Below, piece by piece: positions 22,122 through 46,711 of a stretch of DNA of 64,000 nt. Source of the DNA: Nocardioides eburneiflavus (GTDB lineage: Bacteria; Actinomycetota; Actinomycetes; Propionibacteriales; Nocardioidaceae); assembly GCF_004785795.1 (NCBI RefSeq), contig NZ_SRRO01000001.1:4464001-4528000 (forward strand), given 5' to 3'. Both the position numbers and the translations under genes were made by a program. How positions within the stretch are numbered: position 1 is the stretch's first letter; each line of letters opens with the position of its first letter. Under the pieces are notes generated by a model, which searched no databases, was not told the DNA's origin, and saw nothing but the letters and a program-made list of their open reading frames with translations.

Positions 22122-22137
22122 TAGTCACAACGAGCCA
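22122..22137 (+). promoter_or_regulatory. Half-site of the TAGTC-N6-GACTA motif upstream of tadE
   Basis: TAGTCACAACGAGCCA matches the left arm and spacer of the palindromes upstream of cpaB and flp (TAGTCACAA) but has lost the right arm. It lies 100 bp before tadE. The flanking GACCAATGGTC is itself a short palindrome overlapping the left edge. I read it as a degenerate site for the same regulator. Confidence 0.45.
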
Positions 22138-22186
22138 TCTTTCGTCATGGAGGGTCGAAAGTGCCGTCAAAGAAGCGACAGCCGAG

Positions 22187-22207
22187 GTCACCGACTCCTA
22201 CGGTGAC
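22187..22207 (+). other. Leader hairpin upstream of tadE
   Basis: GTCACCG-ACTCCTA-CGGTGAC forms a perfect 7-bp stem with a 7-nt loop 30 bp before the tadE start. It could be an operator palindrome or an mRNA leader structure. Hairpins also occur upstream of cpaB and flp. Confidence 0.4.
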
Positions 22208-22236
22208 AGGCGAACATCTCGGGGAAAGGGGATCTC

Positions 22237-22674
22237 ATGCGCTGGCGCACACGTACGAACGGTCGCACCGAGCGGGGTGCTGCCGCGGTCGAGTTCGCCT
22301 TCATCGTGATCCCGCTCATGTTCATCATCTGCGGCATCGTGAACTTCGGGGTGATCTTCGCCCAGCAGCTGAGCCTCGACAACGCCACCCGTGCCGCCGC
22401 CCGAGCGGCCGTCGTCGACTCGGGCGTGGACGTCGTGACCCGCGCCGACACCGAGTTCAACGGCGCGCTGGCACGCAACCAGGCGGGGGCCCTGAACATC
22501 ACGTTCCCCGGCGGCGCCGGCGCGACCTGCGAAGGCAGCGACTTCGGCGAGCTCCTGATCGTGCGCGGCGAGGTGACGACCAACGTCCTGATCCCGTGGG
22601 TCTTCCCGGACGCGGTCCTGCCCGGCTCCTTCGACCTCGAGAGCGAGGCGGCATTCCAATGCGAGTACTCATGA
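22237..22674 (+). CDS. tadE: TadE-family pilus assembly protein (pseudopilin-like)
   Basis: Protein of 145 residues. The N-terminus RTERGAAAVEFAFIVIPLMF has the class IVb prepilin/pseudopilin pattern: charged leader, Gly, then a hydrophobic helix with Glu at position +5 (GAAAVEF), the expected prepilin peptidase site. The next part (QQLSLDNATRAAARAAVV) is the conserved TadE amphipathic helix; the C-terminal ~90 residues are extracytoplasmic. AAAGGGGATCTC precedes the ATG. It should be a minor component of the Flp pilus. The first of two genes, it overlaps tadG by ATGA. Confidence 0.85.
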   Translation: MRWRTRTNGRTERGAAAVEFAFIVIPLMFIICGIVNFGVIFAQQLSLDNATRAAARAAVVDSGVDVVTRADTEFNGALARNQAGALNITFPGGAGATCEGSDFGELLIVRGEVTTNVLIPWVFPDAVLPGSFDLESEAAFQCEYS

Positions 22675-23861
22675 CCACACGTGAGCGGGACGACAACGGC
22701 GCCACGGCCGTTCTCGTCGGCATCCTCGCCTTGTTCCTCGTCGGCCTCTCGGCCTTCACGATCGATGCAGGCTCGGCCTTCGTGTCCAACCGGAACCTGC
22801 AGCGCGCTGCCGATGCTGGTGCGCTGGCCGGAGCGCAGGCCCTCACGCAGTTCCCGGGCTCGTGCGAGTCCGTTGCCGGCAGCACTGCAGCGCGGACAGC
22901 CGCACACGACGCCGCAGTGTTGCGGGCTCAGGAGAACTACCCCGACGAGAGCTGGAGCGAGACACACTTCGACGTCAAGTGCGACCCCGAGCTCAAGGTG
23001 CTGCTCGTGGAGTTCGCCAACGAGGGCACGACCGATGCGGTGTTCGCCCCCGTCTTCGACGGCGACGACGAGATCACGACCTCGCGCGACGCAGAGGCGA
23101 CGGTCGACGTGGCGCCCGGCGCCGGCGAGAACGTGCGGCCCCTCGCGCTGTGCTCAGCCGCGGTCGGCGACACCGAGCCGGGCGAGTTCGTCCAGATCTT
23201 CTACCCCGGCCACGGCACCAAGTCTCCCCCCCAGTGCCCCAAGCCCAAGAGCGCCGGCAACTGGTGGACCCTGGACTGTCCCGAGGAGCGCACTGGCTCC
23301 ACCGGCGCCCTGGAGGACCAGATCCGCGAGGGCTGCGAAGACCGCGTCACCGTCATCCCCGGCCAGTCGGACGTGGACACGCCCGGCCAGCTGACGGTCG
23401 TGCTCGAGGACGCGTGCCCGTCGGCACCCATCGGCTCCGAGACGTGCATGAGCGGCGATCCGGGCAACCTCGACGCTGGCCACATCGCGGACGCCTGGGA
23501 GCACCTGGTCGACACGCAGAAGGAAAGCATCTTCCCGGTGTTCTGCGTGTCGCCGCAGTGCAGCGAGGACACCACGTCGGGCTCAGGAACGGGAACCGTG
23601 TTCCCGGTCTACAAGCTGGTCTCGGCGATCGTGTGCGGCTACCACTTCAGCAAGAAGGAGAGGAAGCACTCCACGACGGGCAAGTGCGCCGGCAACCCCT
23701 TCCTGGCCGAGTCGGACCCCGACGACAGCAGCGGCAACAACTACCTCATCCTGAAGTACATCTCGACCCGCACGAGCGGATCCAATGCCGAGTCGGAGTG
23801 CGCGCTCGGTGCGGAGTGCGACGGCGGCCTCCGCCGTACGCGGCTCACCGGCGGCGGCTAG
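22671..23861 (+). CDS. tadG: TadG-related pilus assembly protein
   Basis: Protein of 396 residues. The N-terminus DDNGATAVLVGILALFLVGLSAFTIDAGSAF followed by NRNLQRAADAGALAGAQAL is the Tad/TadG N-terminal domain: one membrane helix, then an amphipathic helix. The remainder is a long extracytoplasmic region rich in Cys (at least twelve, many in CP or CS contexts), suggesting disulfides. No clear VWA domain remains, although longer TadG proteins have one. Start at 22671 (ATGA overlap) is preferred; an in-frame ATG at 22659 is possible. It faces the convergent gene at 23868. Confidence 0.78.
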   Translation: MTTRERDDNGATAVLVGILALFLVGLSAFTIDAGSAFVSNRNLQRAADAGALAGAQALTQFPGSCESVAGSTAARTAAHDAAVLRAQENYPDESWSETHFDVKCDPELKVLLVEFANEGTTDAVFAPVFDGDDEITTSRDAEATVDVAPGAGENVRPLALCSAAVGDTEPGEFVQIFYPGHGTKSPPQCPKPKSAGNWWTLDCPEERTGSTGALEDQIREGCEDRVTVIPGQSDVDTPGQLTVVLEDACPSAPIGSETCMSGDPGNLDAGHIADAWEHLVDTQKESIFPVFCVSPQCSEDTTSGSGTGTVFPVYKLVSAIVCGYHFSKKERKHSTTGKCAGNPFLAESDPDDSSGNNYLILKYISTRTSGSNAESECALGAECDGGLRRTRLTGGG

Positions 23862-23867
23862 GAGCCC

Positions 23868-24254
23868 TCAGTCGTCCGACGGCCAGTCGTCGGCGACGTC
23901 GATGTGCTCGACGTCGCCGGCCCGGGCCGTGCCCGAGTGCGTCGTCGCCATGACTGCCGCCGCGGCCTGGGCCAGCGAGGCCATCGCCGAGGTCAGGTGC
24001 GCGGTGACCTCCGGGCTCAGCTGACGTACGGCGTGCACGGTCCGGCAGACCGGGCACACCGTGCACTCGGCCGCCCCGGTCGCGAGGTGCTCGTTGAGGT
24101 CGTGCGCCGACGCTGCGGCCTGGGCGGCGAGCCCGGACAGCCCCTCGCTGGCGTCGCCGGCGTGCTCACGGGCCCAGCCGGAGAGGGCGCCGAGCAGCTT
24201 GGCGGTCTCCTCGCCCAGCGACCCGACCTCGTGTGCGTCACCCGCGTCGGTCAC
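23868..24254 (-). CDS. Hypothetical protein with CPVC motif (DUF5304-like)
   Basis: Small cytoplasmic protein of 128 residues: an Ala-rich helical N-terminal half, then CTVCPVCRTVHAVRQLSPEVTAHL, a compact Cys cluster (two CxxC-like pairs sharing residues) that may bind zinc, and an acidic end. Similar proteins sit next to the ArsA-like ATPase in other actinobacteria, to my recollection, but no function is established. The GTG start overlaps the ArsA-like gene stop (GTGA). Confidence 0.68.
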   Translation of the reverse strand: MTDAGDAHEVGSLGEETAKLLGALSGWAREHAGDASEGLSGLAAQAAASAHDLNEHLATGAAECTVCPVCRTVHAVRQLSPEVTAHLTSAMASLAQAAAAVMATTHSGTARAGDVEHIDVADDWPSDD

Positions 24255-25450
24255 AGGGCTTCCTCCGGCGTATCAGTCGTGGAGTTGTCCGGCTCGGCGA
24301 ACCGGACCTGCAGCTCTCCGTCCCGCACCCTGGCGCCCACCACGCGGTGGCGCGCCAGCCCGGACGGCAGCGTCAGGAGGCGACGATACGACGCGACGGA
24401 CACCACGAGCTCGTCGCCCTTGCGCGCGAGACGTACGTCGTCCTGTTCGGCGAGCGGGAGGGGCACCGTCAGCATCCTGCTGCTCCCGGTCCTACGCACG
24501 GACATGCCCGCGGTGCCGGACCCCTTCGCGAGCGGGTCGGAGCCGTCGTAGAGGTCCGCCGCCAGGTCCAGCAGCGCGTCGCGCCCGACCGGCTCGGCGG
24601 CGCGGTAGACCGACGTCCGGAGGTCCAGCCCGGCGAACGAGTCGGCCGCTTCCTCGAGCACCGTGCGCTGGGCCGCGACCCACGTCGTGCGCCACTCGTC
24701 GGCGCCGCCGTCGGGGAAGACCCGGTTCACGACGGCCGCGTCGACGTGGTAGCCGAAGAGGCTCAGGAACGTGTAGGCACGCCGCGCCTCGGCGAGCACC
24801 ACCGACTCGGGGGTGAGGACGAGGCGGACGGAGGTGTCCGGCCCGGTGAGCACGGCACGTACGTCGTCAAGCTCGGTGTGGAGCCGCTCGATCGCGTCGA
24901 AGACGGAGTCCTCGGGCATCGGCACCCCTGCCGCACGGGTGAGGACCGGCTTGAGGGCCTTGACGACACGACGCTCGACGGGCAGGACGCGGGTCATGTA
25001 CCACCCGAGGGCCTCGGGCAGCGCGAGCAGCCGCAGCGTCTCGGCCGTCGGCGCGCAGTCGACCACGAGGACGTCCCACTCCCCCGACCTCGCCTGTGCC
25101 CGCACATCGAGGAGGGCCAGCACCTCCTCGGCCCCGGGGATGACGGTGAGCTCCTCGGCGGCGACCGGGTCGACCCCGGCGACGTCGAGGACGCTCATCA
25201 GGTAGCCCTGGATGTCGGCCCAGGAGCGCTCGAAGCGGTGCTGGGCATCGACGTGCTGCACCCAGAGGTTGGGTGCGACCTCACTGGGCTCGGTGGTGGC
25301 GGCCACCTCGAGCGCGTCGGCCAGCGAGTGGGCGGCATCGGTGGACAGCACCAGGGTCCGGTGGCCGGCGGCCGCGCTCGCGCAGCCCGTCGCGGCGGCC
25401 AGCGTGGACTTGCCGACACCGCCCTTGCCGGTGAACAGGAGGATCCGCAT
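24251..25450 (-). CDS. ArsA/GET3-family ATPase
   Basis: Soluble ATPase of 399 residues. The deviant Walker A is FTGKGGVGKST at 6-16, switch I is LSTDAAHSLADAL, and VVDCAPTAETLRLLALP is switch II. These match the ArsA/Get3 class. Actinobacterial members are not linked to arsenite transport, and no ars genes are near. C-terminal residues form a beta-rich domain (LPLAEQDDVRLARKGDELVV), like the small alpha-crystallin-like domain appended to many ArsA-type proteins. Conserved neighbours: SRPBCC upstream, then FadD divergently. Confidence 0.85.
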   Translation of the reverse strand: MRILLFTGKGGVGKSTLAAATGCASAAAGHRTLVLSTDAAHSLADALEVAATTEPSEVAPNLWVQHVDAQHRFERSWADIQGYLMSVLDVAGVDPVAAEELTVIPGAEEVLALLDVRAQARSGEWDVLVVDCAPTAETLRLLALPEALGWYMTRVLPVERRVVKALKPVLTRAAGVPMPEDSVFDAIERLHTELDDVRAVLTGPDTSVRLVLTPESVVLAEARRAYTFLSLFGYHVDAAVVNRVFPDGGADEWRTTWVAAQRTVLEEAADSFAGLDLRTSVYRAAEPVGRDALLDLAADLYDGSDPLAKGSGTAGMSVRRTGSSRMLTVPLPLAEQDDVRLARKGDELVVSVASYRRLLTLPSGLARHRVVGARVRDGELQVRFAEPDNSTTDTPEEAL

Positions 25451-25464
25451 CCCGGACCCGGGCG

Positions 25465-25902: not shown

Positions 25903-25997
25903 GGCCGGAGCCTAGCCCACGGCACCGGGCGTGCTGGGCCGCCGGCCCCGCGGGATAGCCTGCGGACCGCACACGTCGACCCTCAGGAGGTTCCATC

Positions 25998-27850: not shown

Positions 27851-27870
27851 AGTAGTCACAACGGACTACT
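27851..27870 (+). promoter_or_regulatory. Perfect palindromic operator upstream of cpaB
   Basis: AGTAGTC-ACAACG-GACTACT: 7-bp perfect inverted arms with a 6-bp spacer, ending 188 bp before cpaB. The core TAGTCACAAnGGACTA is shared with sites at 36610 and 46694. A TAGATT candidate -10 box is at 27932. The rest of this 264-bp gap holds a cruciform-like GAGCC/GGCTC stretch right after fadD and the stem-loop at 27959. The likely regulator is the response regulator at 35916 (inference). Confidence 0.7.
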
Positions 27871-28058: not shown

Positions 28059-28838
28059 ATGGCTCGCCGCTCCGTTCTTCTCATCGTTGCGGTGCTGATC
28101 GCACTGATCGGCACGGCCCTGATCGTGCTCTACGTCCAGGGCATCGACGAACGCGCCACCGAGGGCCAGGAGCTCGTCGAGGTCCTCGTCGCCACCGAGG
28201 CGCTGGAGGCCGGCGAGTCCGTCTCGGCCGCGCAGGAGGCGGGCAAGTTCGACACGAAGGAGGTGCGACGCACCGACGTCGTCGACGGAGCCCTCTCCTC
28301 GACCGGCTCGATCTCCGATCTCGTCGCGACGGGGCCGATCTATCCCGGCGAGCAGCTCATCGCCAAGAAGTTCGGCACGTTGGGCGACACCGACTCGCTC
28401 GTGATCCCGGATGACAAGATGGCGATCTCGGTCGAGCTCACGGACTGGGAGCGCGTGGCGGGCTTCGTCAACCCCGGCAACGAGGTGGCCATCTTCGCCA
28501 CCGCCGTCGGCCCGGTACGGATCGACGCGGAAGGTCAGGAGACCAAGCTGGGCGACTGGACGCGCGTCGTCCTCCCCCGCGTCCCCGTCGTGGGCGTGGG
28601 CACCACGAGCGTCACGTCCCGCACGACGAGGAGCGAGGACGGTGACACCGCGACCGAGGAGGTGGCGCGCACCATCCTGACCATCGCCGTCACGCAGGCC
28701 GAAGCCGAGAAGCTGATCCACGCCGACCGCACCACCGAGCTCACCTTCGGCCTGCTCACCGATGAGACGGACACGCAGGACGAGCCCGGGATCGGCCTCG
28801 GCGGCGTGATGCCCGAGATCTTCAGGGCGCGGCCGTGA
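28059..28838 (+). CDS. cpaB: CpaB/RcpC-like SAF-domain pilus assembly protein
   Basis: Protein of 259 residues from the ATG at 28059; the open frame upstream reads through the leader stem-loop. One N-terminal membrane helix (SVLLIVAVLIALIGTALIVLYVQG), then an SAF-type domain: EVLVATEALEAGESV, followed by GPIYPGEQLIAKKF, the two SAF halves. The domain is extracytoplasmic and, in Tad systems, helps assembly of the pilus envelope channel, here without a secretin. It is the first gene of the main tad operon, and overlaps the next by GTGA. Confidence 0.82.
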   Translation: MARRSVLLIVAVLIALIGTALIVLYVQGIDERATEGQELVEVLVATEALEAGESVSAAQEAGKFDTKEVRRTDVVDGALSSTGSISDLVATGPIYPGEQLIAKKFGTLGDTDSLVIPDDKMAISVELTDWERVAGFVNPGNEVAIFATAVGPVRIDAEGQETKLGDWTRVVLPRVPVVGVGTTSVTSRTTRSEDGDTATEEVARTILTIAVTQAEAEKLIHADRTTELTFGLLTDETDTQDEPGIGLGGVMPEIFRARP

Positions 28839-30073
28839 CCGCCATCCTCGAACCCGACGTCGCGCAGGCGAGCATCCTGCAGGCGATGCTCCACGGCTCG
28901 GTCTCGTTCCGCGACATGGACGCGCTGCGCGACCACCTCGAAGCGACGCCCAACGAGTTCGCCGTGGTGATCGGGCCCTCCGTCGCCGGCGACTTCGCCG
29001 CGGAGTTCGCCCAGTGGGCACGCGTCCAGCGACCGGACCTCGGCGTGATCCTGCTGCGCAACACGGTCGACAGCGACGCCTTGGCCCTGGCCCTGCGCAG
29101 CGGCATGCGCGAGGTCGTCGGTGCCCGCGACCTGGCCGGCGTCACCACCGCCGTCCAGCGGGCCCGGAGCGTGGCCAGCGCGATCGGCCAGACCCTGATG
29201 GGCGAAGCCCAGGCCGCGGCCAACGCTGTGAAGGCCGAGATCGCCGCCGAGGCAGCCGCCGCCCAGGCCGCTGCCGAGGCGCCGGTCGGTCGCCTGCACA
29301 CCGTGTTCTCGACCAAGGGGGGCGTCGGCAAGAGCCTGGTCGCCACCAACCTCGCGGTGGCGATGGCCGATGCGGGCAGCAAGGTGTGCCTGGTCGACCT
29401 CGACGTCAACAGCGGCGACGTCGCCATCATGCTGCAACTGAACCCCACCCGGACGATCAACGACTTGGCCGGCTTCCAGGGCGTCGTCGACGACGGTGCC
29501 GTCGACTCCGTGCTGACCAGGTACTCCGACAACCTCTCGATCGTGGCGGCTCCGATCCGTCTCGACAGTCCCGAACAGGCGACCGCCGAGGACATCGGCA
29601 AGCTGCTCGACGCGCTGAAGTACCGCTTCGACGCCGTCGTGGTCGACACGTCCGGGGTCTTCGACGACCAGGCGCTGACCGCGCTCGACCGCAGCGACAC
29701 GATCGTCCTCGTCGGCACCCTCGACATCCCAGCGCTCAAGGGGCTCAAGCTGGCGACCAACACGCTGGACCTGCTGAACTTCGGCAAGGACTCGTGGCGG
29801 TTCGTGCTCAACCGCGCCGACGGCCGGGTCGGCCTCTCGGTCGACGAGTACGAGTCCACCCTGGGCCTCAAGGCCGCACTGACCCTCGTGTCGGCCAACG
29901 AGGTCCTCAACGCCGTCAACCGGGGCGAGCCCTTGGTGCGTGCCTACTCGGGGCACCAGAACAGCAAGGGCCTGGTGCGCTTCGCCGCCACGCTCACCGA
30001 TTCCTCGACCTCCGCAGCAACCTCGGAGTCCGGCGCGCGCAAGGCCGGCCGGCTCCGTCTCAGGAAGGGCTGA
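28835..30073 (+). CDS. cpaE: CpaE/TadZ-like ATPase
   Basis: Protein of 412 residues. Residues 1-115 resemble a degenerate receiver domain (MTAILEPDVAQASILQAML; no phosphoacceptor context), followed by an Ala-rich linker (AEIAAEAAAAQAAAEAP) and a MinD/ParA-like ATPase with FSTKGGVGKSLVATNLAVAM (deviant Walker A), LVDLDVNSGDVA and VVDTSGVFDD. TadZ proteins localise the pilus machinery at the pole. The C-terminal ~40 residues are Ser/Thr/Ala-rich and basic. It overlaps cpaB by 4 bp and is followed by tadA after 2 bp. Confidence 0.85.
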   Translation: MTAILEPDVAQASILQAMLHGSVSFRDMDALRDHLEATPNEFAVVIGPSVAGDFAAEFAQWARVQRPDLGVILLRNTVDSDALALALRSGMREVVGARDLAGVTTAVQRARSVASAIGQTLMGEAQAAANAVKAEIAAEAAAAQAAAEAPVGRLHTVFSTKGGVGKSLVATNLAVAMADAGSKVCLVDLDVNSGDVAIMLQLNPTRTINDLAGFQGVVDDGAVDSVLTRYSDNLSIVAAPIRLDSPEQATAEDIGKLLDALKYRFDAVVVDTSGVFDDQALTALDRSDTIVLVGTLDIPALKGLKLATNTLDLLNFGKDSWRFVLNRADGRVGLSVDEYESTLGLKAALTLVSANEVLNAVNRGEPLVRAYSGHQNSKGLVRFAATLTDSSTSAATSESGARKAGRLRLRKG

Positions 30074-30075: not shown

Positions 30076-31533
30076 ATGGGACTCAGCGACCGACTCGCCG
30101 CCGCCACGCGTCACAGCGCCAACGGGGCCGCCAACGCGACTGCCACCGAGCAGGAGCGGCCCAACGGCGCCGCGCCCGCCGGCGAAGCACCCGGCTCGGC
30201 GGTCACCTCTGCGTCGAGCCTCGCGGCCCGTCGCAAGCAGAAGTCGCCGGAGGGCACTGACCCCTTCCGCGACCTGAAGCGCGTGGTCCATGCCCGGTTG
30301 GTGGAGTCGATCGGCCCGAAGCTCTACGACGCCAACATGACGCAGTCGGAGCTCGAGCAGCAGGTGCGGCTCGCACTGCAGACGACGCTCGCCGACACCG
30401 ACATGCCGATGACCTCAGCCGATCGCACCCGGATCGCGCAGGAGATCGCAGACGACATCCTCGGCTACGGGCCGATCGAGCCCCTGCTGCGCGACCCGAG
30501 CCTGTCCGAGGTGATGGTCAACTCCTTCCAGGACATCTTCGTCGAGCGGAGCGGCAAGCTGGTCAAGGTCGAGACCTCGTTCACCGACGAGGCCCACCTG
30601 CGGCGCACCATCGACAAGATCGTGAGCAAGATCGGCCGACGTGTCGACGAGACCAGCCCGATGGTGGACGCCCGCCTGCCTGACGGCAGCCGTGTGAACG
30701 CCATCATCCCCCCGCTCGCGCTCGACGGATCCAAGCTCACCATCCGCAAGTTCTCCGAGGACCCCTACACCGTGGACGACCTGATCGGGTTCGGCACGTT
30801 GACCCGCCAGTCGGCCGACCTCCTCGCCGGATGTGTCAAGGGTCGGCTCAACATCCTCGTCTCCGGAGGAACGGGCGCAGGCAAGACGACGACCCTGAAC
30901 GTCCTCTCGTCGTTCATCCCCGAGGACGAGCGCATCGTCACGATCGAGGACGCTGCCGAGCTCCGTCTCGTCCAGGACCACGTGCTGCGGCTCGAGTCGC
31001 GCCCGCCCAACATCGAGGGCAAGGGCGCGGTGACGATCCGCGACCTGGTCAAGAACTCGCTGCGCATGCGCCCTGACCGCGTCGTCGTCGGTGAGATCCG
31101 TGATGCCGCCGCGCTCGACATGCTCCAGGCCATGAACACCGGCCACGACGGCTCCATCTCGACCCTTCACGCCAACACGCCTCGAGACGCACTGGCGCGT
31201 CTCGAGACCATGGTGCTGATGGCGGGCATGGACCTCCCGGTGCGCGCCATCCGCGAGCAGGTGGCCAGTGCCGTCGACCTGATCATCCAGCAGTCCCGTC
31301 TCAAGGACGGCACCCGCCGGATCACCGCCATCACCGAGATCGTCGGGATGGAGGGCGACATCATCACCACCCAGGACGTCTTCCTCTTCGACTATGCCGC
31401 CGGTGTGGACGAGATGGGCAAGTTCAAGGGCGGGCTGGTCTCCACCGGCCTGCGTCCCCGCTTCATCGAGCGCCTCCAGGACCACGGAGTCCACATGGAC
31501 CCGGCGATCTTCGCCAGCGGCGGACGACGATGA
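30076..31533 (+). CDS. tadA: TadA/CpaF secretion ATPase
   Basis: Hexameric type II/IV secretion-type ATPase that powers Flp pilus assembly at the cytoplasmic membrane; 485 residues. The N-terminal ~70 residues are polar. LVSGGTGAGKTTTLNVL is Walker A, TIEDAAELRL the Asp box, RMRPDRVVVGEIRDAAALDML Walker B, and GHDGSISTLHAN the His box. ATG at 30076 follows the cpaE stop by 2 bp; the longer upstream frame is a shadow of cpaE. Its stop overlaps the tadB start (ATGA). Confidence 0.92.
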   Translation: MGLSDRLAAATRHSANGAANATATEQERPNGAAPAGEAPGSAVTSASSLAARRKQKSPEGTDPFRDLKRVVHARLVESIGPKLYDANMTQSELEQQVRLALQTTLADTDMPMTSADRTRIAQEIADDILGYGPIEPLLRDPSLSEVMVNSFQDIFVERSGKLVKVETSFTDEAHLRRTIDKIVSKIGRRVDETSPMVDARLPDGSRVNAIIPPLALDGSKLTIRKFSEDPYTVDDLIGFGTLTRQSADLLAGCVKGRLNILVSGGTGAGKTTTLNVLSSFIPEDERIVTIEDAAELRLVQDHVLRLESRPPNIEGKGAVTIRDLVKNSLRMRPDRVVVGEIRDAAALDMLQAMNTGHDGSISTLHANTPRDALARLETMVLMAGMDLPVRAIREQVASAVDLIIQQSRLKDGTRRITAITEIVGMEGDIITTQDVFLFDYAAGVDEMGKFKGGLVSTGLRPRFIERLQDHGVHMDPAIFASGGRR

Positions 31534-33425
31534 GCACGCTCGTCGGCAGGATCGCCGCCGGCGCGGCGGCGGGCGTCGCCCTGCTGCTGGCGACGCCTCT
31601 GCCGTCCCACGCCGCCGACGAGATCACGATCGACCACGTCGCAGTCACCGAGGGCACCGTCGACCTCCTGCTCTCGGTCGACCGCCTCCCTGGTGGACCC
31701 GACGTCGACGCAGACGCAGTCGAGGTGGCCGTGGAGGGACGGGCCGTGGCCTCGACTGTGAAGGCCGTGGCAGCCGGCGACATCGATCGCTCGACGATGC
31801 TCGTGCTCGACGCGAGCAACAGCATGCAGCGCGGCGGCAAGTTCGACGCCGCCCGAGCCGCGGTAGACGCGTACCTCTCAGCGGCTCCGGAGGACGTGCG
31901 CATCGGCCTGGTGGCGTTCGCCGGCAAGGTGTCCACCACCATCGACCCGACCACCGACCATGCAGCGGTCGAGGACGCCCTCGCCGGGATCAGCCTCAAG
32001 CGCGGAACCAGCGTCTACGACGGCATCGACGCCGGAATGGCGGCGCTGGGCACGGACGGGTCCCGGTCCATCCTGGTGCTCTCCGACGGTGCCGACACCG
32101 GCAGCACGACCACGCTGGAGGTCCTGTCCCGCCAGGCCGCCGACGCCGGTGTGGTGATCGACGTCGTCTCACTCGCCTCAGCCGACCGCGCTGCCGAGCT
32201 CGCGGGGCTCGCGGACGCGACCCAGGGCGCGGTCATCCCAGCCGACCCGGCAGCTCTCGCCACGGTCTTCTCCCAGCAGGCCGACGCGCTCTCGCAGCAG
32301 CTGCTGATCACGTTCGAGCCGCCTGCGGACGTCACCGCGGACGCCACGGTCGACGTCTCGGTGACCTCGCAGGGTGAGACCTACAACGACTCGGCGCTGA
32401 TGACGCTCCCCGACAACGGGACGCAGCTCGACGTCGTCGAGTCCGGCGAGGCCCTCATCAGCCGGCCTGTCATGCTCATGGGCGCCCTCGCCCTCGCGCT
32501 GGGCCTGGGCGGCATCCTGGTCACGGTCCTGGTCGGCGCGACCGACGGGCGGTCCAGCACCGAGCGGCGCCTCGACAACTACTTCGGCGAGGACGGCAAG
32601 TCGGGAGGGCACCGCGGCTCAGCTGCCAGGACCGACATCAAGGGGTCCGCTGTCGCGGTCGCGGACAAGGTGGTGACCGCCGACCTCGAGACGCGCATCT
32701 CACAGCGACTGACCGGCGCCGGCTCTGCGCTCACCGCTGCCGAGTGGTTGCTGCTCCACGCCGGAGTCGCCGTCGGAGGTGCGGTCGTCGGCTTCCTGAT
32801 GGGCGGCGGCGCACTGGCCGTGCTCGGGCTGGTCCTCGGAGCCGTCCTGCCGTGGATCTACCTGAGGTTCCGCCACAAGAGGCGGCTCAACAAGTTCAAC
32901 GCCAACCTCGCCCAGTCCCTGGGGCTCATGGCAGGCGGCCTCCAGGCGGGACTCTCGCTGCCGCAGGCCGTTGACACCGTGGTGCGCGAGGGGAACGAGC
33001 CCATCGCCGGCGAGTTCAAGCGCGCCCTCATCGAGCAGCGCCTGGGCATCGACATCACGGACGCGATGGAGGGCATCGGTCAACGGATGGAGAGCCAGGA
33101 CTTCACGTGGGTCGTCATGGCCATCCGCATCCAGCGCGAGGTCGGCGGCAACCTCGCGGAGATCCTGCACACCGTGTCCGACACGCTGCGTGAGCGCGAG
33201 TACCTGCGCCGCCAGGTCAAGGCACTCAGTGCGGAGGGACGCATGTCGGCCTGGATCCTCGGCGCCCTTCCGGTGGGCATGTTCGGCTACATGCTCATGG
33301 CCAACCGCAAGTACGTGGAGCCGCTCTACACGACGGGGATCGGATGGGCCATGCTTGCAGCGGCAACGGTTCTGCTGAGCGTAGGGAGCTTCTTCATGGC
33401 AAAGCTGGCCAAGGTGGAGGTCTGA
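31530..33425 (+). CDS. tadB: VWA domain-TadB fusion (type II secretion F-family platform protein)
   Basis: Protein of 631 residues joining two modules. Signal peptide (AAGVALLLATPLPSHA) and an extracytoplasmic von Willebrand A domain at ~85-270 with an intact metal site: VLDASNSM (DxSxS), the Thr in KRGTSVYDG, and LSDGADTG. A membrane helix (MLMGALALALGLGGILVTVL, ~312-331) leads to the TadB module: two hydrophobic segments, the cytoplasmic T2SSF domain (NLAQSLGLMAGGLQAGLSL, GGNLAEILHTVSDTLREREYLRRQVKALSAEGR), and two final helices. TadB is the platform for TadA. The VWA part would face outside, where it could bind pilin or a ligand. Confidence 0.87.
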   Translation: MSTLVGRIAAGAAAGVALLLATPLPSHAADEITIDHVAVTEGTVDLLLSVDRLPGGPDVDADAVEVAVEGRAVASTVKAVAAGDIDRSTMLVLDASNSMQRGGKFDAARAAVDAYLSAAPEDVRIGLVAFAGKVSTTIDPTTDHAAVEDALAGISLKRGTSVYDGIDAGMAALGTDGSRSILVLSDGADTGSTTTLEVLSRQAADAGVVIDVVSLASADRAAELAGLADATQGAVIPADPAALATVFSQQADALSQQLLITFEPPADVTADATVDVSVTSQGETYNDSALMTLPDNGTQLDVVESGEALISRPVMLMGALALALGLGGILVTVLVGATDGRSSTERRLDNYFGEDGKSGGHRGSAARTDIKGSAVAVADKVVTADLETRISQRLTGAGSALTAAEWLLLHAGVAVGGAVVGFLMGGGALAVLGLVLGAVLPWIYLRFRHKRRLNKFNANLAQSLGLMAGGLQAGLSLPQAVDTVVREGNEPIAGEFKRALIEQRLGIDITDAMEGIGQRMESQDFTWVVMAIRIQREVGGNLAEILHTVSDTLREREYLRRQVKALSAEGRMSAWILGALPVGMFGYMLMANRKYVEPLYTTGIGWAMLAAATVLLSVGSFFMAKLAKVEV

Positions 33426-33426: not shown

Positions 33427-34359
33427 ATGATGTCTCCGATGCTGATGCTCGGCGCCGGGTTGCTGTTCCTCGCCGGAACGCTCGCTCTCTCCCTGATCGG
33501 CGTGGCGACGTCCGAGCGCCGCGGTGTCGCGCGCTCCGTTGCAGCCATCAACGCCCTCGACGCAGCGCCCGACGTCATCAAGGAGGAGCTCGAGCGGCCC
33601 TTCAGCGAGCGGGTGCTCGCGCCCCTCGGCGATCGCTTCGTGGGCATAGGTCGCAAGGTGGCGGGCGCCGACACTGCGAAGAAGATCCAGCACCGACTCG
33701 ACATCGCCGGCAATCCCGCGGGATGGGACGTCAACCGCATCCTCGGGCTGAAGGTGCTCGGGCTGGGCGTCTTCGGCGTGCTCGGCTTCCTCTACATCTC
33801 GGCGACCGATTGGCCCATCGTCCGCGTGGTCCTCGCAACGGTCGCGCTCGGCGCGTTCGGCTACCTCCTGCCCAACATCCTGCTCTACAACGCCGGCCAG
33901 AAGCGCGAGGCGCTGATGCGCAGGTCCCTCCCCGACGCGCTCGACCTGCTCACTGTCTCTGTCGAGGCCGGACTCGGCTTCGACTCAGCCGTCGGACGCG
34001 TCGCCCGCAACACCGAAGGCCCCCTCGCACAGGAGTTCGGCCGTCTGCTCCAGGAGATGCAGATCGGCGTCGGCCGAGTCCAAGCCATGCGCAGCATGGC
34101 CGAACGGTCCTCCCTGGACGACCTTCGGTCCTTCTGCACGTCGATGGTGCAGGCGGACAGTCTCGGCATCCCCATCGGCCGGGTGCTGCGCGTCCAGAGC
34201 CAGGAGATGCGCACCAAGCGCCGCCAGCGAGCCGAGGAGAAGGCCCAGCAGGTGCCGGTGAAGATCATGGTGCCGCTCGTCCTGTTCATCCTGCCGTGCC
34301 TGTTCATCATCGTCATGGGCCCTGCGGCCATCGGGATGATGGAAGCCTTCGGCAGCTAG
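33427..34359 (+). CDS. tadC: TadC, type II secretion F-family platform protein
   Basis: Protein of 310 residues. An N-terminal membrane helix (MLMLGAGLLFLAGTLALSLIG), a hydrophobic pair in the middle (ILGLKVLGLGVFGVLGFLYI and VVLATVALGAFGYLLPNILL), then the cytoplasmic T2SSF domain (RSLPDALDLLTVSVEAGLGFDSAVGRVA, SLGIPIGRVLRVQSQEMRTKRRQRAEEKAQ) and a last helix. It is the second platform protein pairing with TadB. It begins 1 bp after the tadB stop. ATG at 33427 or the next codon. Confidence 0.88.
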   Translation: MMSPMLMLGAGLLFLAGTLALSLIGVATSERRGVARSVAAINALDAAPDVIKEELERPFSERVLAPLGDRFVGIGRKVAGADTAKKIQHRLDIAGNPAGWDVNRILGLKVLGLGVFGVLGFLYISATDWPIVRVVLATVALGAFGYLLPNILLYNAGQKREALMRRSLPDALDLLTVSVEAGLGFDSAVGRVARNTEGPLAQEFGRLLQEMQIGVGRVQAMRSMAERSSLDDLRSFCTSMVQADSLGIPIGRVLRVQSQEMRTKRRQRAEEKAQQVPVKIMVPLVLFILPCLFIIVMGPAAIGMMEAFGS

Positions 34360-34366: not shown

Positions 34367-35941
34367 GTGCAGACGCTCCCATCGACCGAACCACCGGGCG
34401 GCCCTCAGCTCCGGACGTGGCGCACGACGACTGCCGTACGGGTCTTCGCACTGGCGCTGGCGACGGGCAATGCCATCAGCGGTGGAACAGTGGGAGAGGT
34501 CTTTCCGCTCCTGCTGGTGCTCGCGATCGCGGCAGCGGCCTCCTCCCTGCTGGAGCTGTCGAGCCGGAACAGGCTCACCCACTGGCACTCCGTGGCCGAG
34601 GCCGTCGCCGTCACCATCGTCATCGTCGGCACGTCCTCGACCGCGAGCCCCGTGGCCTATCTCGCCGTTCCGCCCGTGGTGGCCGGCATTCGGCACGGTC
34701 TGGTCACCACCCTCAACGTCACCCTGCTGTCCGCCCTGACCGCCGCCGCCACCTTCGCGCTCGAGCCCGACGGGGACGCCCTGGAGGGTGCCGCGGCGTG
34801 CGCACCGTGGCTGGCGATCGGCTTGGGGGTCGGGCTGCTGGCGAGCTGGCAGTCTCGTTCCACCCGCGATCTCGCCGCGCGCCAAGCGCCGTACGCGGCC
34901 GCCCACCACCTGATGGCGCGCATCCACCAGCTGGCGACGTCGGGGACCCTGGGGCTGGACAGTGCCTCCCTCGCCACCGAGCTCGAGGACGCCATGCGAC
35001 GCGCGACGGGTGGCGCCCGCTCGACCGTCTTCGTCGTCGAGCCGGACACGACGCTGCGCGCGCTGAACCCCGGTGCCGACGTCGAGCGTCTGGCACGGGA
35101 GATCGAGCTGCCCGACTCCGAACGAACCCCCGGCGCGGCGGTCATCCCGCTCCGCGGTGCACGGCAGGTGCTCGGCTACTGCGTGGTGGTCGGCGTGCCC
35201 CGATGGACCGATGAGCTCGACGCCCGGGCCCGCGAGGTGGCGGACGACTTCGCCGTACGACTCGACACCGCGGTGCTCTTCGACGACGTCCGGGCGCTGG
35301 CCACGTCCGAGGAGCGGAACCGGATCGCGCGCGAGATGCACGACGGTGTCGCACAGGAGATCGTCGCGATGGGTTACATCGTGGACGAGATCGAGTCGAT
35401 CAGCGACCACGACCAGACACGGGAGCTGGCGTCCGCGCTCCGGGACGAGATCACCCGGCTGGTGTCCGAGATCAGGTTCTCCATCTTCGACCTCCGACAC
35501 GAGGTCATCGACGGTCGCGTCTCGAGCTCCCTCGCCGACTACGCACGTGCGGTCAGCCTCGCAAGTGGCCTGCGGGTGCACCTGAGCCTGGCTGAGTCCG
35601 GTCCACCCCTCTCACCGCGCACTGCGACAGAGGTGCTGCGGGTCGCCCAGGAGGCGATCGGCAACGTCAGGAAGCACGCAAACGCCGAGAACCTGTGGCT
35701 CACCTTCGAGTCGGACGGGACATCGCTGCAGCTCGATGTCGAGGACGACGGAGTCGGCAACGCCGGCCCTCGCGAGCACCACTGGGGACTGCAGACCATG
35801 CGTGAACGGGCCGAGGGCGTCGGCGCCCGGCTCGAGATCGGTCCACGACGAGATGGCGGCACAGTCGTCAGCCTGCGGTCCCCTGCGACCACCACCCGAG
35901 AAGGAGGCACCGCCCATGGGCACCACCGTGCTACTGGTTGA
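34367..35941 (+). CDS. Sensor histidine kinase in the tad operon (HisKA_3, GAF-like)
   Basis: Histidine kinase of 524 residues, GTG start 7 bp after tadC. The first ~165 residues hold about five hydrophobic segments; ~175-295 look GAF-like (AHHLMARIHQLATSGTLGL to FAVRLDTAVLFDDV). His325 lies in RNRIAREMHDGVAQEIVAMGY, then a HATPase domain with LRVAQEAIGNVRKHANAENL and VEDDGVGNAG. The gene end overlaps the response regulator start by 26 bp, so they are coupled. As part of the pilus operon it most likely tunes tad expression. The signal is unknown. Confidence 0.87.
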   Translation: MQTLPSTEPPGGPQLRTWRTTTAVRVFALALATGNAISGGTVGEVFPLLLVLAIAAAASSLLELSSRNRLTHWHSVAEAVAVTIVIVGTSSTASPVAYLAVPPVVAGIRHGLVTTLNVTLLSALTAAATFALEPDGDALEGAAACAPWLAIGLGVGLLASWQSRSTRDLAARQAPYAAAHHLMARIHQLATSGTLGLDSASLATELEDAMRRATGGARSTVFVVEPDTTLRALNPGADVERLAREIELPDSERTPGAAVIPLRGARQVLGYCVVVGVPRWTDELDARAREVADDFAVRLDTAVLFDDVRALATSEERNRIAREMHDGVAQEIVAMGYIVDEIESISDHDQTRELASALRDEITRLVSEIRFSIFDLRHEVIDGRVSSSLADYARAVSLASGLRVHLSLAESGPPLSPRTATEVLRVAQEAIGNVRKHANAENLWLTFESDGTSLQLDVEDDGVGNAGPREHHWGLQTMRERAEGVGARLEIGPRRDGGTVVSLRSPATTTREGGTAHGHHRATG

Positions 35942-36563
35942 TGACCACGAGCTGATCCGCCAGGGACTCGCCCGGGCGTTCGAGCGAGACGCCGACATGA
36001 CCGTGGTGGGTCAGGCTGGTTCCGTGGCTGACGGCGTTGCCGCGTGGCAAGCGCTCACCCCGGACGTCGTGGTCACCGACCTCCAGCTGCCCGACGGGCA
36101 CGGCCTCGAGATCGTCCGGGCAGTGCGGACGCTGTCCGACTCCACTGGATTGGTCGTGCTGACGATGCACGCGGGTGACGACCAGATCTTCGCAGCGATG
36201 GAGGCCGGCGCCTCGGCCTTCGTGGGCAAGGACAGCAAGGCGACCGAGGTCGTCAGTGCAGCCAAGCACGCCGCTGTTGCACCCCGCACGTTCCTCTGTG
36301 CGGGACTCAGCGGGGCGATGATGCGCCGCGCGACCAACCCCGCACCGCCCAAGCTCTCCGGACGTGAGGAGGAGGTCCTGGCCCTCCTCGCAGACGGACT
36401 GGGCACGGGCGAGATCGCTGGCCGCCTCTACATGAGCGAGTCGACGGCCAAGACCCACATCACCCACATCTACCAGAAGCTCGGTGCAGCCAACCGGGCG
36501 CAAGCGCTCGTCACCGCCATGCGACTCGGCATGCTCGACCACGCTTCCCCTCAGCGTTTCTGA
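35916..36563 (+). CDS. NarL/LuxR-family response regulator in the tad operon
   Basis: Response regulator of 215 residues. VLLVDDHELIRQGL opens the receiver, Asp55 is in VVVTDLQLPDG, and the C-terminal HTH has LSGREEEVLALLADGLGTGEIA and MSESTAKTHITHIYQKL. A strong AGAAGGAGG at 35899-35907 fixes the ATG at 35916 inside the kinase gene. It is probably the regulator that binds the TAGTC-N6-GACTA palindromes at 27851, 36610 and 46694 (inference from linkage; NarL-type proteins bind short inverted repeats). It is last in the tad operon; flp follows after its own regulatory region. Confidence 0.88.
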   Translation: MGTTVLLVDDHELIRQGLARAFERDADMTVVGQAGSVADGVAAWQALTPDVVVTDLQLPDGHGLEIVRAVRTLSDSTGLVVLTMHAGDDQIFAAMEAGASAFVGKDSKATEVVSAAKHAAVAPRTFLCAGLSGAMMRRATNPAPPKLSGREEEVLALLADGLGTGEIAGRLYMSESTAKTHITHIYQKLGAANRAQALVTAMRLGMLDHASPQRF

Positions 36564-36609: not shown

Positions 36610-36625
36610 TAGTCACAAGGGACTA
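36610..36625 (+). promoter_or_regulatory. Palindromic operator upstream of flp
   Basis: TAGTC-ACAAGG-GACTA, identical to the core of the cpaB site except one spacer base, 117 bp before the flp ATG. Between it and flp there is a GGGTCCT/AGGACCC inverted repeat (36687-36713) that could form a leader hairpin. The 178-bp gap holds nothing else I can identify. Confidence 0.7.
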
Positions 36626-36741: not shown

Positions 36742-36924
36742 ATGCTCGAGAAGTTCGTTGCCTTCCAGCTCTTCATGCTCGCCGACCGCGAGGAGAAGGG
36801 CGCCACCGCCGTCGAGTACGGCCTGATGGTCGCGCTGATCGCCGCCATCATCGTCGCCACCGTCGCGCTTCTCGGCCAGGCGATCCTGGGCGCGTTCCAG
36901 ACCGTCCTCGCCGAGGTCAACTGA
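36742..36924 (+). CDS. flp: Flp-family type IVb pilin (major)
   Basis: Pilin of 60 residues. Leader MLEKFVAFQLFMLADREEKG ends in Gly, followed by ATAVEYGLMVALIAAIIVATVALLG: hydrophobic pilin helix with Glu at +5 and Tyr at +6, the exact Flp pattern, with a short C-terminal end (AFQTVLAEVN). The leader is longer than usual and partly hydrophobic. AAAGGGGAA precedes the ATG. It is followed by a very strong terminator, so it can be expressed as a short abundant transcript. Needs a prepilin peptidase encoded elsewhere. Confidence 0.92.
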   Translation: MLEKFVAFQLFMLADREEKGATAVEYGLMVALIAAIIVATVALLGQAILGAFQTVLAEVN

Positions 36925-36996: not shown

Positions 36997-37155
36997 GTGA
37001 AGCACGAAAGAGAAGTCACGGACGAGCAGGGCGCCACCGCCGTCGAGTACGGCTTGATGGTCGCCCTGATCGCCGCCATCATCATGGGCTCGGTAGCCCT
37101 GCTCGGCGAGGCTGTCTTCGGTATCTTCCAGGGCACGCTCAGCTGGCCGTGGTGA
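36997..37155 (+). CDS. Second Flp-family pilin (small)
   Basis: A 52-residue protein from the GTG at 36997, preceded by AAAGGTGAGG. It reads MKHEREVTDEQG, then ATAVEYGLMVALIAAIIMGS, VALLGEAVFGIF and QGTLSWPW. The Gly-Ala-Thr-Ala-Val-Glu-Tyr processing site and helix match the first pilin; the leader is shorter and charged, and the end differs (SWPW). It lies directly after the flp terminator and is itself followed by a hairpin terminator. It may be a minor pilin or a duplicate. The strong match to the neighbour makes it a real gene despite its size. Confidence 0.88.
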   Translation: MKHEREVTDEQGATAVEYGLMVALIAAIIMGSVALLGEAVFGIFQGTLSWPW

Positions 37156-41263: not shown

Positions 41264-41275
41264 AGAAGGCAGCAC

Positions 41276-41482: not shown

Positions 41483-41547
41483 GTCCTGAACGGTGGCAGG
41501 GCCCACCGACAGCGCCCCCTCGGCGTGTCGCGCGCCGGCGTGTCGGG

Positions 41548-42788: not shown

Positions 42789-42798
42789 GGACGTCCGG

Positions 42799-43059: not shown

Positions 43060-43183
43060 CCCGGAGACACTACTGGCGAGATCGGGTTCCTACACCGGTC
43101 GGCCGGACTTCTGCGGATCGACTGCCTGCGAGAGTCGGCTCCCTGCATGCTTGACCCATGAAGAGCTCACCTCGGCCACAGAC

Positions 43184-44511: not shown

Positions 44512-44522
44512 CGTCGGGAGGC

Positions 44523-46313
44523 ATGAGCACCACCGCCCTCCGCTCCCCCCGTGGGACGTCCCGCTGGGAGGCGCAACGCAGCTTCGACGAGCTGGGGCGG
44601 CCGCTGCGCGACCTCACCTTCTGCGTGGTCGACCTCGAGACCACGGGCGGGTCCGCCGATGGCGGATCGATGATCACCGAGATCGGCGCGGTCAAGGTGC
44701 GCGGCGGTGAGGTGCTCGGCGAGTTCCAGACCCTGGTCAACCCGCACACCGAGATCCCGGCCTTCATCGCCGTGCTCACCGGCATCAGCAACTCGATGGT
44801 CCACGACGCACCCTCGATCGAGGCCGCGCTGCCGGCGTTCCTCGACTTCGCGGCCGGGTGCGTGCTCGTCGCCCACAACGCCCCGTTCGACGTCGGCTTC
44901 CTCCAGCACTTCGCACGGCAGCAGGGTCGTCCGTGGCCGAAGTTCGAGGTGCTCGACACCGCCAAGCTGGCCCGTCGCGTGATCACCCGCGACGACGCCC
45001 CCAACTGCAAGCTCTCGTCGCTGGCCAAGGTGTTCAACGCCTCGACCACGCCCAACCACCGTGCGCTGTCCGACGCCCGCGCCACGGTGGACGTCCTGCA
45101 CGGCCTGATGGAGCGCCTCGGCGGCCTCGGCGTGCACACGCTCGAAGAGCTCCAGACCTTCTCGTCCCGGGTGAGCACCGCCCAGCGCCGCAAGCGCCAC
45201 CTGGCTGAAGGGCTCCCGCACTCCCCCGGCGTCTACCTCTTCCGCGACGAGCAGTCGCGTGTCCTCTACATCGGCACCTCTCGCGACCTCCGCACCCGGG
45301 TCCGGACCTACTTCACCTCCTCCGAGACCCGCACGCGCATGGGCGAGATGGTCGGCCTCGCCGCCTCCGTGACCGGCATCGAGTGCGCCACTCCGCTCGA
45401 GGCCGAGGTGCGCGAGCTGCGCCTGATCGCCGAGCACAAGCCGAAGTACAACCGGCGCTCGCGCTTCCCCGAGAAGGTCCACTTCCTCAAGCTCACCCGC
45501 GAGGCGTGGCCCCGCCTGTCCTTGGTGCGCAAGGTGCTCGACGACGACGCCGACTACCTCGGCCCCTTCTCGTCGAAGAAGACGGCCGAGAAGTGCCTCG
45601 CCGCCCTCCACGAGACCTTCCCCGTCCGTCAGTGCAGCGGCCGCCTCCCGCTCGCGCCGTCGGGTTCCTCCTGCGCGTTGGCCGAGATGGGACGTTGCCT
45701 CTCACCCTGCGACGGATCGACCGACGCGTCGACCTACGGCGCCGTCGTCCGCCAGCTGCGGGACACCCTGCTCCGCAGCCCGCACGAGGTCGTCGAGGCG
45801 ATCAACCAGCGGATGACGGCCCTCGCCGACCGCGAACGCTTCGAGGAGGCGGGCGTCCACCGCGACCGGCTGGCGACGTTCGTCCGCGCCGCCGCCCGCA
45901 CCCAGCGCCTCTCGGCGCTCACCCGCTGCCCGGAGATCGTGGCAGCGCGACGCGAGGACAGTGGTCGCTGGTCCGTGCACGTCGTCCGCCACGGTCGTCT
46001 CGCTGCGGCCGGGGTGATCCCGCCCGGCGCCGACGCGCACCAGTACGTCCGCGAGCTGACCGCGAGCGCAGAGACGGTCAGCGACGCTCCCGGCCCGGTC
46101 CCGGCCGCCACGGCCGAGGAGTCGGAGAAGATCCTGCGCTGGCTGGAGTCACCCGGCGTACGCCTCGTCGACGTCGACGGCGAGTGGGTCTGTCCGCTGG
46201 GAGGCGCGGCCCGACACCTGGCGGTCTACGACGCCGCGAACCAGTCGCGGCTCTCCCTCGTGCCCTTCGACGAGCACCGGCTGCCCTCGCCGGTGCACCG
46301 CCCTACGAGATAG
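44523..46313 (+). CDS. DEDDh exonuclease-UvrC/Cho-like GIY-YIG fusion nuclease
   Basis: Predicted DNA repair nuclease of 596 residues. Exonuclease domain ~30-205: CVVDLETTGG (DxE), HNAPFDVGF, and HRALSDARATVDVLH (HxxxxxD). GIY-YIG domain ~225-310: HSPGVYLFRDEQSRVLYIGTSRDLRTRVRTYF, followed by a UvrC-like segment with EAEVRELRLIAEHKPKYN and a Cys-rich SCALAEMGRCLSPC. This DnaQ-epsilon/UvrC-N fusion is typical of actinobacteria. It lacks UvrC's C-terminal RNase H and HhH parts. Start ATG 44523. Confidence 0.9.
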   Translation: MSTTALRSPRGTSRWEAQRSFDELGRPLRDLTFCVVDLETTGGSADGGSMITEIGAVKVRGGEVLGEFQTLVNPHTEIPAFIAVLTGISNSMVHDAPSIEAALPAFLDFAAGCVLVAHNAPFDVGFLQHFARQQGRPWPKFEVLDTAKLARRVITRDDAPNCKLSSLAKVFNASTTPNHRALSDARATVDVLHGLMERLGGLGVHTLEELQTFSSRVSTAQRRKRHLAEGLPHSPGVYLFRDEQSRVLYIGTSRDLRTRVRTYFTSSETRTRMGEMVGLAASVTGIECATPLEAEVRELRLIAEHKPKYNRRSRFPEKVHFLKLTREAWPRLSLVRKVLDDDADYLGPFSSKKTAEKCLAALHETFPVRQCSGRLPLAPSGSSCALAEMGRCLSPCDGSTDASTYGAVVRQLRDTLLRSPHEVVEAINQRMTALADRERFEEAGVHRDRLATFVRAAARTQRLSALTRCPEIVAARREDSGRWSVHVVRHGRLAAAGVIPPGADAHQYVRELTASAETVSDAPGPVPAATAEESEKILRWLESPGVRLVDVDGEWVCPLGGAARHLAVYDAANQSRLSLVPFDEHRLPSPVHRPTR

Positions 46314-46314
46314 C

Positions 46315-46354
46315 CGCTGGTCGAGGAGGGCACTCAGCGCCCGTCACGAGACCC
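46315..46354 (+). repeat. Palindromic intergenic element, copy C
   Basis: CGCTGGTCGAGGAGGGCACT followed by CAGCGCCCGTCACGAGACCC, right after the fusion nuclease stop and touching the AsnC-like gene stop at 46355. Same layout and length as the copies at 17795 and 18335. Position between convergent genes hints at a terminator role. Confidence 0.7.
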
Positions 46355-46633
46355 TCAGTCCAGCCCGATGCTGAACGCCGACTCGAGGTCGTGCTTCGAG
46401 TACGTGCGGAAGGCGATGTGGGTCTCGGTCTCGGTGACGCCCTCGACCTTGTTGAGCCGGTCGGCGACGACGGACGCGACGTCCTCGTGCTCGCGCACCC
46501 GTACGAGCGCGATCAGGTCGATCTGGCCGGTCACCGAGTAGACCTCGCTGACGCCGTCGAGGGAGGCTATCGCCTCCGCGACCTCGGGGATGCGCGCGAC
46601 GTCGGCCTTCACGAACACGATGGCGGTGATCAT
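46355..46633 (-). CDS. Lrp/AsnC ligand-binding (RAM) domain protein
   Basis: Protein of 92 residues containing only the C-terminal ligand-binding domain of Lrp/AsnC regulators: ITAIVFVKADVARIPEVAEAI, GVSEVYSVTGQIDLIALVRV, and TETHIAFRTYSKHDLESAF. No helix-turn-helix. Stand-alone RAM proteins bind amino acids and oligomerise; some work with other regulators. Its position near the trpD/qcr block is conserved in actinobacteria to my recollection. Confidence 0.87.
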   Translation of the reverse strand: MITAIVFVKADVARIPEVAEAIASLDGVSEVYSVTGQIDLIALVRVREHEDVASVVADRLNKVEGVTETETHIAFRTYSKHDLESAFSIGLD

Positions 46634-46693
46634 GGCTTCACCGTAGCGCTCCCGACGACCGCGGCACCGGCGGCGACCGATCGGACGGACCCA

Positions 46694-46711
46694 CTAGTCC
46701 TTTGTGACTAG
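46694..46711 (+). promoter_or_regulatory. Palindromic operator upstream of the large surface protein
   Basis: CTAGTC-CTTTGT-GACTAG: perfect 6-bp arms and 6-bp spacer. On the opposite strand its core reads TAGTCACAAAGGACTA, the same sequence as at the cpaB and flp sites. A TAGCGT candidate -10 box at 46751 lies about 40 bp downstream, inside a CACAC/GTGTG hairpin. The operator ends 85 bp before the surface protein ATG. Confidence 0.68.

Follow-up and report, generated by a model that had tools for sequence, protein, structure and literature searches.

A conserved palindromic box upstream of Tad pilus, giant surface protein and WhiB-family genes in Nocardioides, a predicted binding site of an OrrA-type orphan response regulator

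The site bound by Escherichia coli NarL consists of inverted heptamers around a 2-bp centre (a 7-2-7 layout). In Streptomyces coelicolor the orphan NarL-type regulator OrrA (SCO3008) works with OhkA (SCO1596) and, according to passages of a review, directly regulates WblA (SCO3579) (PMC9739842); excerpts of two further papers likewise give WblA as an OrrA target (PMC9739823) and report that wbl genes are down in orrA mutants (PMC10608281). As far as these passages go, the circuit has so far been described for Streptomyces development, osmoadaptation and antibiotics. Orphan regulators of the NarL/LuxR type also act on 16-bp sites in the BldM homodimer and BldM-WhiI heterodimer regulons, as excerpted from PMC4125116. 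Here we describe a 16-bp palindromic box, TAGTC-N6-GACTA, found in a 64,000-nucleotide stretch of the Nocardioides eburneiflavus genome (contig NZ_SRRO01000001.1, positions 4,464,001 to 4,528,000; the window hereafter), where it precedes genes of a tad pilus locus and a gene for a giant surface protein. We think it probable that the box is a binding site of an orphan NarL-type regulator encoded between hpf and secA, likely OrrA, and that the OrrA regulon has taken in the Tad pilus and an adhesin in this genus.

The sites in the window are as follows.

22122..22137, plus strand: weak box of the predicted OrrA type, TAGTCACAACGAGCCA, upstream of tadE (matrix score 12.8; same-place sites in five relatives' loci)
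27853..27868, plus strand: perfect box TAGTCACAACGGACTA, upstream of cpaB (found by pattern scan; also in 8 of 41 relatives' tad loci)
36610..36625, plus strand: perfect box TAGTCACAAGGGACTA, in the gap separating the tad response regulator gene from flp (all 41 genus loci have one upstream of flp)
46695..46710, minus strand: perfect box, reading TAGTCACAAAGGACTA on that strand, ahead of the gene for the giant Ig/FN3 protein (follows the giant gene, not the AsnC-like gene)

The expected number of TAGTC-N6-GACTA copies in the window is 0.00 and none of 100 dinucleotide shuffles contained even one, so the three perfect sites named in a preliminary description of this DNA are real, the first of them beginning one base earlier than given there, at 27853. 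What had been seen as a half-site ahead of tadE is the weak full site at 22122, and the distances to the start codons of tadE, cpaB, flp and the giant protein gene (99, 190, 116 and 85 bp, respectively) agree with the range of 85-190 bp first reported. The claim that the boxes share an asymmetric spacer read in one sense did not hold: the site at 46695 is in the minus sense though its gene is on the plus strand, and the sense differs among relatives' loci. Since the sense of the spacer is not fixed, the element behaves as a palindrome, an inverted repeat of two heptamers around a 2-bp centre, with A or T at positions 8 and 9 in 81 of the 82 rows of a matrix (41 sites, each read in both senses). 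The matrix was derived from the flp-upstream sites of 40 of 41 relatives' loci plus the window, leaving out that of G038, where the flp genes are inverted; because each site is the best match of its region, matrix scores on flp are not independent, although the tests on the WhiB, giant-gene and Streptomyces sites described below are independent of the matrix construction. In 3.84 Mb of random sequence with the same dinucleotide make-up the matrix finds about one match per Mb at a score of 12 and none at 20.

Within the window the matrix at a cut-off of at least 10 finds exactly the tadE, cpaB, flp and giant-gene sites of the preliminary description. The 5.0-Mb genome as a whole holds six perfect-arm copies, against two of the pattern read backward. 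A fuller pattern, TAGTCACAANGGACTA, has exactly three perfect copies in the genome, all inside the window; when up to three mismatches are allowed it matches 8 times forward and 8 times in reverse, where the reversed-pattern control matches 2 and 7 times, respectively. The three perfect-arm sites beyond the window are intergenic by codon-based gene calls. They lie between a WhiB-family gene and a class A penicillin-binding protein (PBP) gene, between a MATE transporter gene and dnaB (G000:C1:899534, which would be inside the MATE gene were its longest reading frame, with an earlier start, taken), and ahead of a small Ala/Lys-rich protein gene adjoining clpX.

The genes of the tad locus and the giant protein gene, all on the plus strand, are listed here.

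22237..22674, plus strand: TadE-like minor pilin (PF07811)
28059..28838, plus strand: CpaB/RcpC (PF16976)
28835..30073, plus strand: CpaE/TadZ-like ATPase (PF13614 and ParA-type domains)
30076..31533, plus strand: CpaF/TadA secretion ATPase (PF00437 in the open frame; start picked by hand)
31530..33425, plus strand: TadB-like protein (PF13519 and PF00482), with an N-terminal von Willebrand A domain fused to a T2SSF domain
33427..34359, plus strand: TadC-like membrane protein (PF00482)
34367..35941, plus strand: histidine kinase of the tad operon (PF07730 and PF02518)
35916..36563, plus strand: NarL/LuxR-type response regulator of the tad operon (PF00072 and PF00196)
36742..36924, plus strand: Flp pilin 1 (PF04964)
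36997..37155, plus strand: Flp pilin 2 (PF04964)
46796..51403, plus strand: giant Ig/FN3-type protein of 1,535 residues (PF25788, PF16640)

The box recurs at the same genes in relatives. A degenerate pattern, TAGTCACWWNGGACTA, scanned in 77 genomes of which 48 belong to the same genus, is present in 18 (our own included), all of them among the 48, with 30 sites against none for the reversed pattern, which is absent from all 77. Twenty-five of these sites are outside our own genome: 12 between the tad regulator gene and flp, 2 before cpaB, 1 before the giant protein gene, 7 by the WhiB/PBP pair and 3 elsewhere. In a sample of 41 tad-regulator loci from 39 other genus genomes, chosen by the tad regulator, a box lies upstream of flp in every locus, and in 40 of them between the regulator gene and flp; in the remaining one (G038) the box stands on the upstream side of the inverted flp genes and scores lower, at 13.3. 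Over about 20 kb per locus there are 56 matrix matches of at least 12, of which 43 are upstream of flp (these include two second flp copies and the G038, G041 and G020 loci, the flp gene of G041 and of one G020 locus being recognised only by reading frames), with cpaB marked in 8 loci and tadE in 5. In the ten nearest relatives the distance from the box to the flp match is 115-121 bp. Among mononucleotide shuffles of the 41 loci, 37 had 0 of 100 as good, two had 1, G003 had 7 and G038 had 100. At the level of the order, nine loci whose regulator is 42-48% identical were scanned, a single one being taken from each genome out of 16 listed copies, and none has a matrix match of at least 12. Similar loci are the tad and competence loci of Micrococcus luteus, again actinobacterial Flp pili with regulators nearby; in the excerpts seen those regulators are a helix-turn-helix protein by a cpaB-like gene and another two-component system (PMC8467076).

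The third perfect box lies close to an AsnC-like gene (46355-46633) as well as to the giant gene. Among 47 genus loci around this AsnC-like neighbour, a box is found in 12 of the 16 with a giant gene and in 2 of the 31 without one (Fisher p 2.5e-6), where a box had to score at least 11 within 500 bp of the start of the giant match, only giant matches inside the fetched loci were counted, and in loci without a giant gene (G005 and G003 being the two with a site) a site anywhere in the locus was counted. Of the four giant-gene loci with no counted box (G038, G024, G026 and G023), the last has a site of 12.8 ahead of the giant frame, beyond the counting distance from the BLAST match. In G006 and G025 the giant gene is on the other side of the AsnC-like gene, with a site before it there. 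The sites follow the giant gene in these loci, so we assign the box to the giant gene and reject the AsnC-like gene as its owner.

The box is conserved at the WhiB gene as well, which is of the WblA/WhiB4 type: the WhiB-PBP intergenic stretch carries a box scoring at least 16.1 in all 48 genus genomes. The box begins 100-124 bp ahead of the WhiB match in 30 of these, the remaining distances differing mostly where the match extends past the likely start. The PBP gene is a less likely owner: its match lies at widely varying distances from the box, and of the five second PBP copies the four that were examined have neither a WhiB neighbour nor a box (best score at most 0.7). In one locus (L032 of G047) two overlapping boxes, at about 1501-1530, stand upstream of a WhiB gene lying on the strand of the PBP gene. 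Exact matches to TAGTCNNWWNNGACTA number 147 in 59 genus genomes, against 6 for the reversed pattern, and a class-wide scan of 296 genomes (genus included) finds exact sites in 34, against 2. Beyond the genus, all eight genomes of one family (f12) and one genome of another (f31) have an exact site between the WhiB and PBP genes. That the box is no regulator site at all, having arisen by chance or as a relic of a mobile element, is refuted by its conservation upstream of orthologous genes in dozens of species and by the rarity of the reversed patterns (0 against 30 sites, 6 against 147 sites, 2 against 34 genomes); nothing was found in favour of this explanation, and we give it practically no weight.

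These distributions bear directly on the identity of the regulator. The preliminary description had proposed a single regulon of pilus plus adhesin, controlled by the NarL-type response regulator at the end of the tad operon (35916-36563). The first part is supported in that a single cis element precedes the tad units, flp and the gene for the giant protein and is conserved at their orthologs, but the predicted regulon is wider than pilus plus adhesin. The second part is not supported, since the box is kept at the WhiB gene in all eight of the 48 genus genomes where the tad regulator finds no match at E <= 1e-40, and the tad regulator as sole reader is therefore rejected; f12, where the tad regulator was not searched for, also keeps the box in eight of eight genomes. 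The tad and orphan regulators furthermore differ in the stretch corresponding to the recognition helix, and in the tad regulator this stretch shows some variation between species (30 of 41 sequences read, 11 being unmatched by the pattern), while the box does not vary. The tad regulator does belong to the NarL/LuxR class and is encoded beside the flp box, and genomes that have it average more exact sites (2.83 against 0.88, from counts per genome entered by hand), but these also have more target genes. Altogether we find it very unlikely that the tad regulator reads the box and controls pilus and adhesin.

We sought other candidates among proteins matching the GerE family, reading 30 of 42 matches in our own genome and 30 of 82 in G044, G120 and G095 together. 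The strongest is an orphan NarL-type regulator, L257, encoded outside the window between hpf and secA (G000:C1:2590601-2591272). It has receiver and GerE domains (PF00072 and PF00196; identical protein P0001), its best NCBIfam match is NarL at 183.9 bits, under the model cut-off of 250, and the recognition-helix stretch is nearly invariant across 19 orthologs. A search of 29 genomes, with absence judged at E <= 1e-60, finds it in all nine genus genomes included (our own and the eight without the tad regulator), in G320, G188 and G353 of the family, in three of three f12 genomes and in G177, G193, G107 and G060; it is absent from four f3 and three f2 genomes, from G053 and G050 of f4 and from G155 of f17. 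Regulator and WhiB box occur together in 13 genomes (nine of the genus, three of f12, and G177) and both are lacking in four (G053, G050, G048 and G056), so that box and orphan regulator tend to be present or absent together (Fisher p 0.0016, G060 being scored as a contrary case, counts entered by hand, and the f3 genomes and G051 left out because no WhiB neighbour was found).

Other candidates fare less well. Two kinase-linked NarL-type regulators, L261 and L264, have 67-69% identical orthologs in genomes that lack the box (G050 and G053 for L261; G050, G053 and G048 for L264); clear orthologs of L264, as of L257, are present in G044, G120 and G095, and of L261 in G044 and G095. A DosR-like regulator, L268, is found in box-less G053 and G048, and is not among the 10 of 21 G044 matches read. 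BldM is rejected because its motif differs, being a palindrome with consensus TCACcCgnncGgGTGA as against TAGTCMSWWSKGACTA for the Nocardioides box, and no BldM-like protein was noticed among the 30 GerE loci of our own genome that were read; G120 has one. The box could instead be read by another genus-wide regulator outside the compared set, either a further NarL-type protein or a member of a different family with a 5-6-5 layout. Room for such a protein is left by a search limited to the GerE family and by the fraction of its matches read (30 of 42 and 30 of 82), but it would mean that the orphan regulator is distributed as it is, and that OrrA is reported to act on WblA, by coincidence, and L261 and L264 occur in box-less genomes. 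We judge this very improbable.

The orphan regulator is most likely an ortholog of Streptomyces OrrA, which it resembles in protein type and gene order; orthology beyond these two is inferred. The order in our own genome is mtrA-mtrB-lpqB-(ComF-like)-hpf-regulator-gene-secA, which fits the mtrA-mtrB-lpqB-comF-hpf-orrA order expected of OrrA orthologs; MtrA, MtrB, HPF and SecA score above their NCBIfam cut-offs and LpqB below, and the gene between lpqB and hpf, which has no NCBIfam match, was called ComF-like by eye. We take the genes lying between the S. coelicolor entries SCO3013, SCO3012 and SCO3008 to match this order. As the order from mtrA to the regulator fits that from SCO3013 to SCO3008, placed according to a table in PMC9739842, we liken the orphan regulator to OrrA. 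The predicted target corresponds as well to the reported one, a WblA-type WhiB gene adjoining a PBP gene. In 80 of 80 Streptomyces-type loci the best matrix match in the 800 bp before wblA is 123-125 bp upstream, with scores of 15.6-21.5; the sites are TAGTCCGTTCGGGCCA (59 loci), TAGTCCGTTCGGACCA (17) and TAGTCCATTCGGGCCA (4). They differ from the Nocardioides box in that the second half-site is degenerate (GGGCCA or GGACCA), and the Nocardioides box differs in also marking flp, cpaB, tadE and the giant surface protein gene. Six aligned Streptomyces promoters from loci L415-L494 also have a BldM-like TCACTCC...GGGTGA repeat, some 150-170 bp from wblA and immediately upstream of the box.

Several observations weigh against assigning the box to the orphan regulator. 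The assignment was made from 30 of 42 GerE matches of our own genome, and the co-occurrence comes from few independent gains and losses among related species. G060 (f4) has the regulator and only a partial site, with a best WhiB-upstream score of 5.2 and one perfect arm; conversely, G155 (f17) has the motif and no regulator match at E <= 1e-60, in a genome that is 91% complete. Six of the 59 genus genomes have no exact TAGTCNNWWNNGACTA site, the class scan finds one in just a single f31 genome of five, and the exact sites of three f7 genomes, one f21 genome and one f28 genome are not accounted for. Six f3 genomes carry another, related-looking repeat before the PBP gene, and the four of them searched for the orphan regulator lack it. 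Finally, the 80 Streptomyces loci are closely related with the whole promoter conserved, and therefore constitute one strong case and not eighty.

Even so, a simple scheme can be put forward on the basis of these comparisons. The orphan regulator would bind as a dimer to two TAGTCMS half-sites arranged over 16 bp in the 7-2-7 manner of NarL; the length of the palindrome and its A/T centre suit the two heptamers and 2-bp centre of NarL-type dimers, although the half-site is unlike that of NarL and no link to nitrate is known. The box marks the WblA/WhiB4-type gene in all 48 genus genomes examined, flp too in those with this tad locus, cpaB or tadE in some, the giant surface protein gene in most genomes where it was found, and some genes for secreted or envelope proteins. 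The regulator probably activates these targets, such that pilus and adhesin would be made together with the WblA-type protein: the positions of the box, both before start codons in the window and before the flp match in relatives, suit an activator upstream of the promoter, and the decrease of wbl genes in orrA mutants likewise suits activation. Where a cpaB box is present it would place the tad kinase and regulator, at the end of the operon, under the same control.

A variant is that both regulators act, the OrrA-type orphan as the general reader and the tad regulator joining it at the pilus promoters, either as a heterodimer or at a second site. The 11 closest flp promoters do share a second conserved block downstream of the box, a GGCCGATCACCCGATTCG-like stretch lying just downstream of it that could serve as the second site; all 41 loci picked by the tad regulator also match the kinase of the tad operon, and the BldM-WhiI heterodimer offers a precedent in the passages seen (PMC4125116). 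The downstream block may simply be the promoter, however, and the flp boxes are almost symmetric and agree with the boxes found at the WhiB gene where the tad regulator is missing, whereas a heterodimer site is expected to be asymmetric. We regard joint action as unlikely, though less so than control by the tad regulator.

Reading by the orphan regulator thus seems the best explanation, and suggests that the box is recognized by an old, stand-alone response regulator (OrrA) and not by the regulator of the pilus cluster. If true, this assigns to an orphan regulator a precise binding site that can be tested and targets beyond those in Streptomyces, ties a WhiB-family regulator to the making of Tad pili in a large soil genus, and corrects the natural assumption that a two-component system within a pilus operon must control that operon. 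We found no paper on Tad pili in Nocardioides, and the literature passages searched contain neither an OrrA consensus nor a link between OrrA and pili; the OrrA binding site at wblA may already be published. On this evidence, what is new is the box in Nocardioides, its association with pilus and adhesin genes as targets, and the finding that the box is conserved even where the regulator of the operon is missing. More tentatively, the OrrA-WblA circuit might be an ancient actinobacterial switch for surface attachment, with the box before the WblA-type gene not only in Nocardioides and Streptomyces but in two or more further families, the same regulator directly running the Tad pilus, giant adhesin and envelope proteins in Nocardioides, and aerial development as a derived use; we offer this as a possibility that we would not yet favour.

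The box is also seen at a number of other genes. The MATE transporter gene adjoining dnaB is a recurrent neighbour (L249, L219, L223, L238, L332), as is a gene adjoining clpX for a small, secreted-looking and often Ala/Lys-rich protein (L250, L225, L235, L247, L248). In L222 (G087) and L229 (G085) the box is by genes for exported-looking proteins, one of them a CAP-domain protein. In L230 (G085) and L255 (G014) it separates a sigma-70-family gene from an operon that includes a DosR-like response regulator, the sigma factor having been tested for L255 only, and in L256 (G047) it is between two genes that by eye resemble those of a flagellar sigma factor and of FlgN. The exact motif occurs near genes for multi-pass membrane proteins of unassigned kind in f17 (L318, L319) and f24 (L326, L327), and the repeats upstream of the PBP gene in f3 (L288, L289, L295, L297, L299, L300) are TCRTCC-N4-GGAYGA-like.

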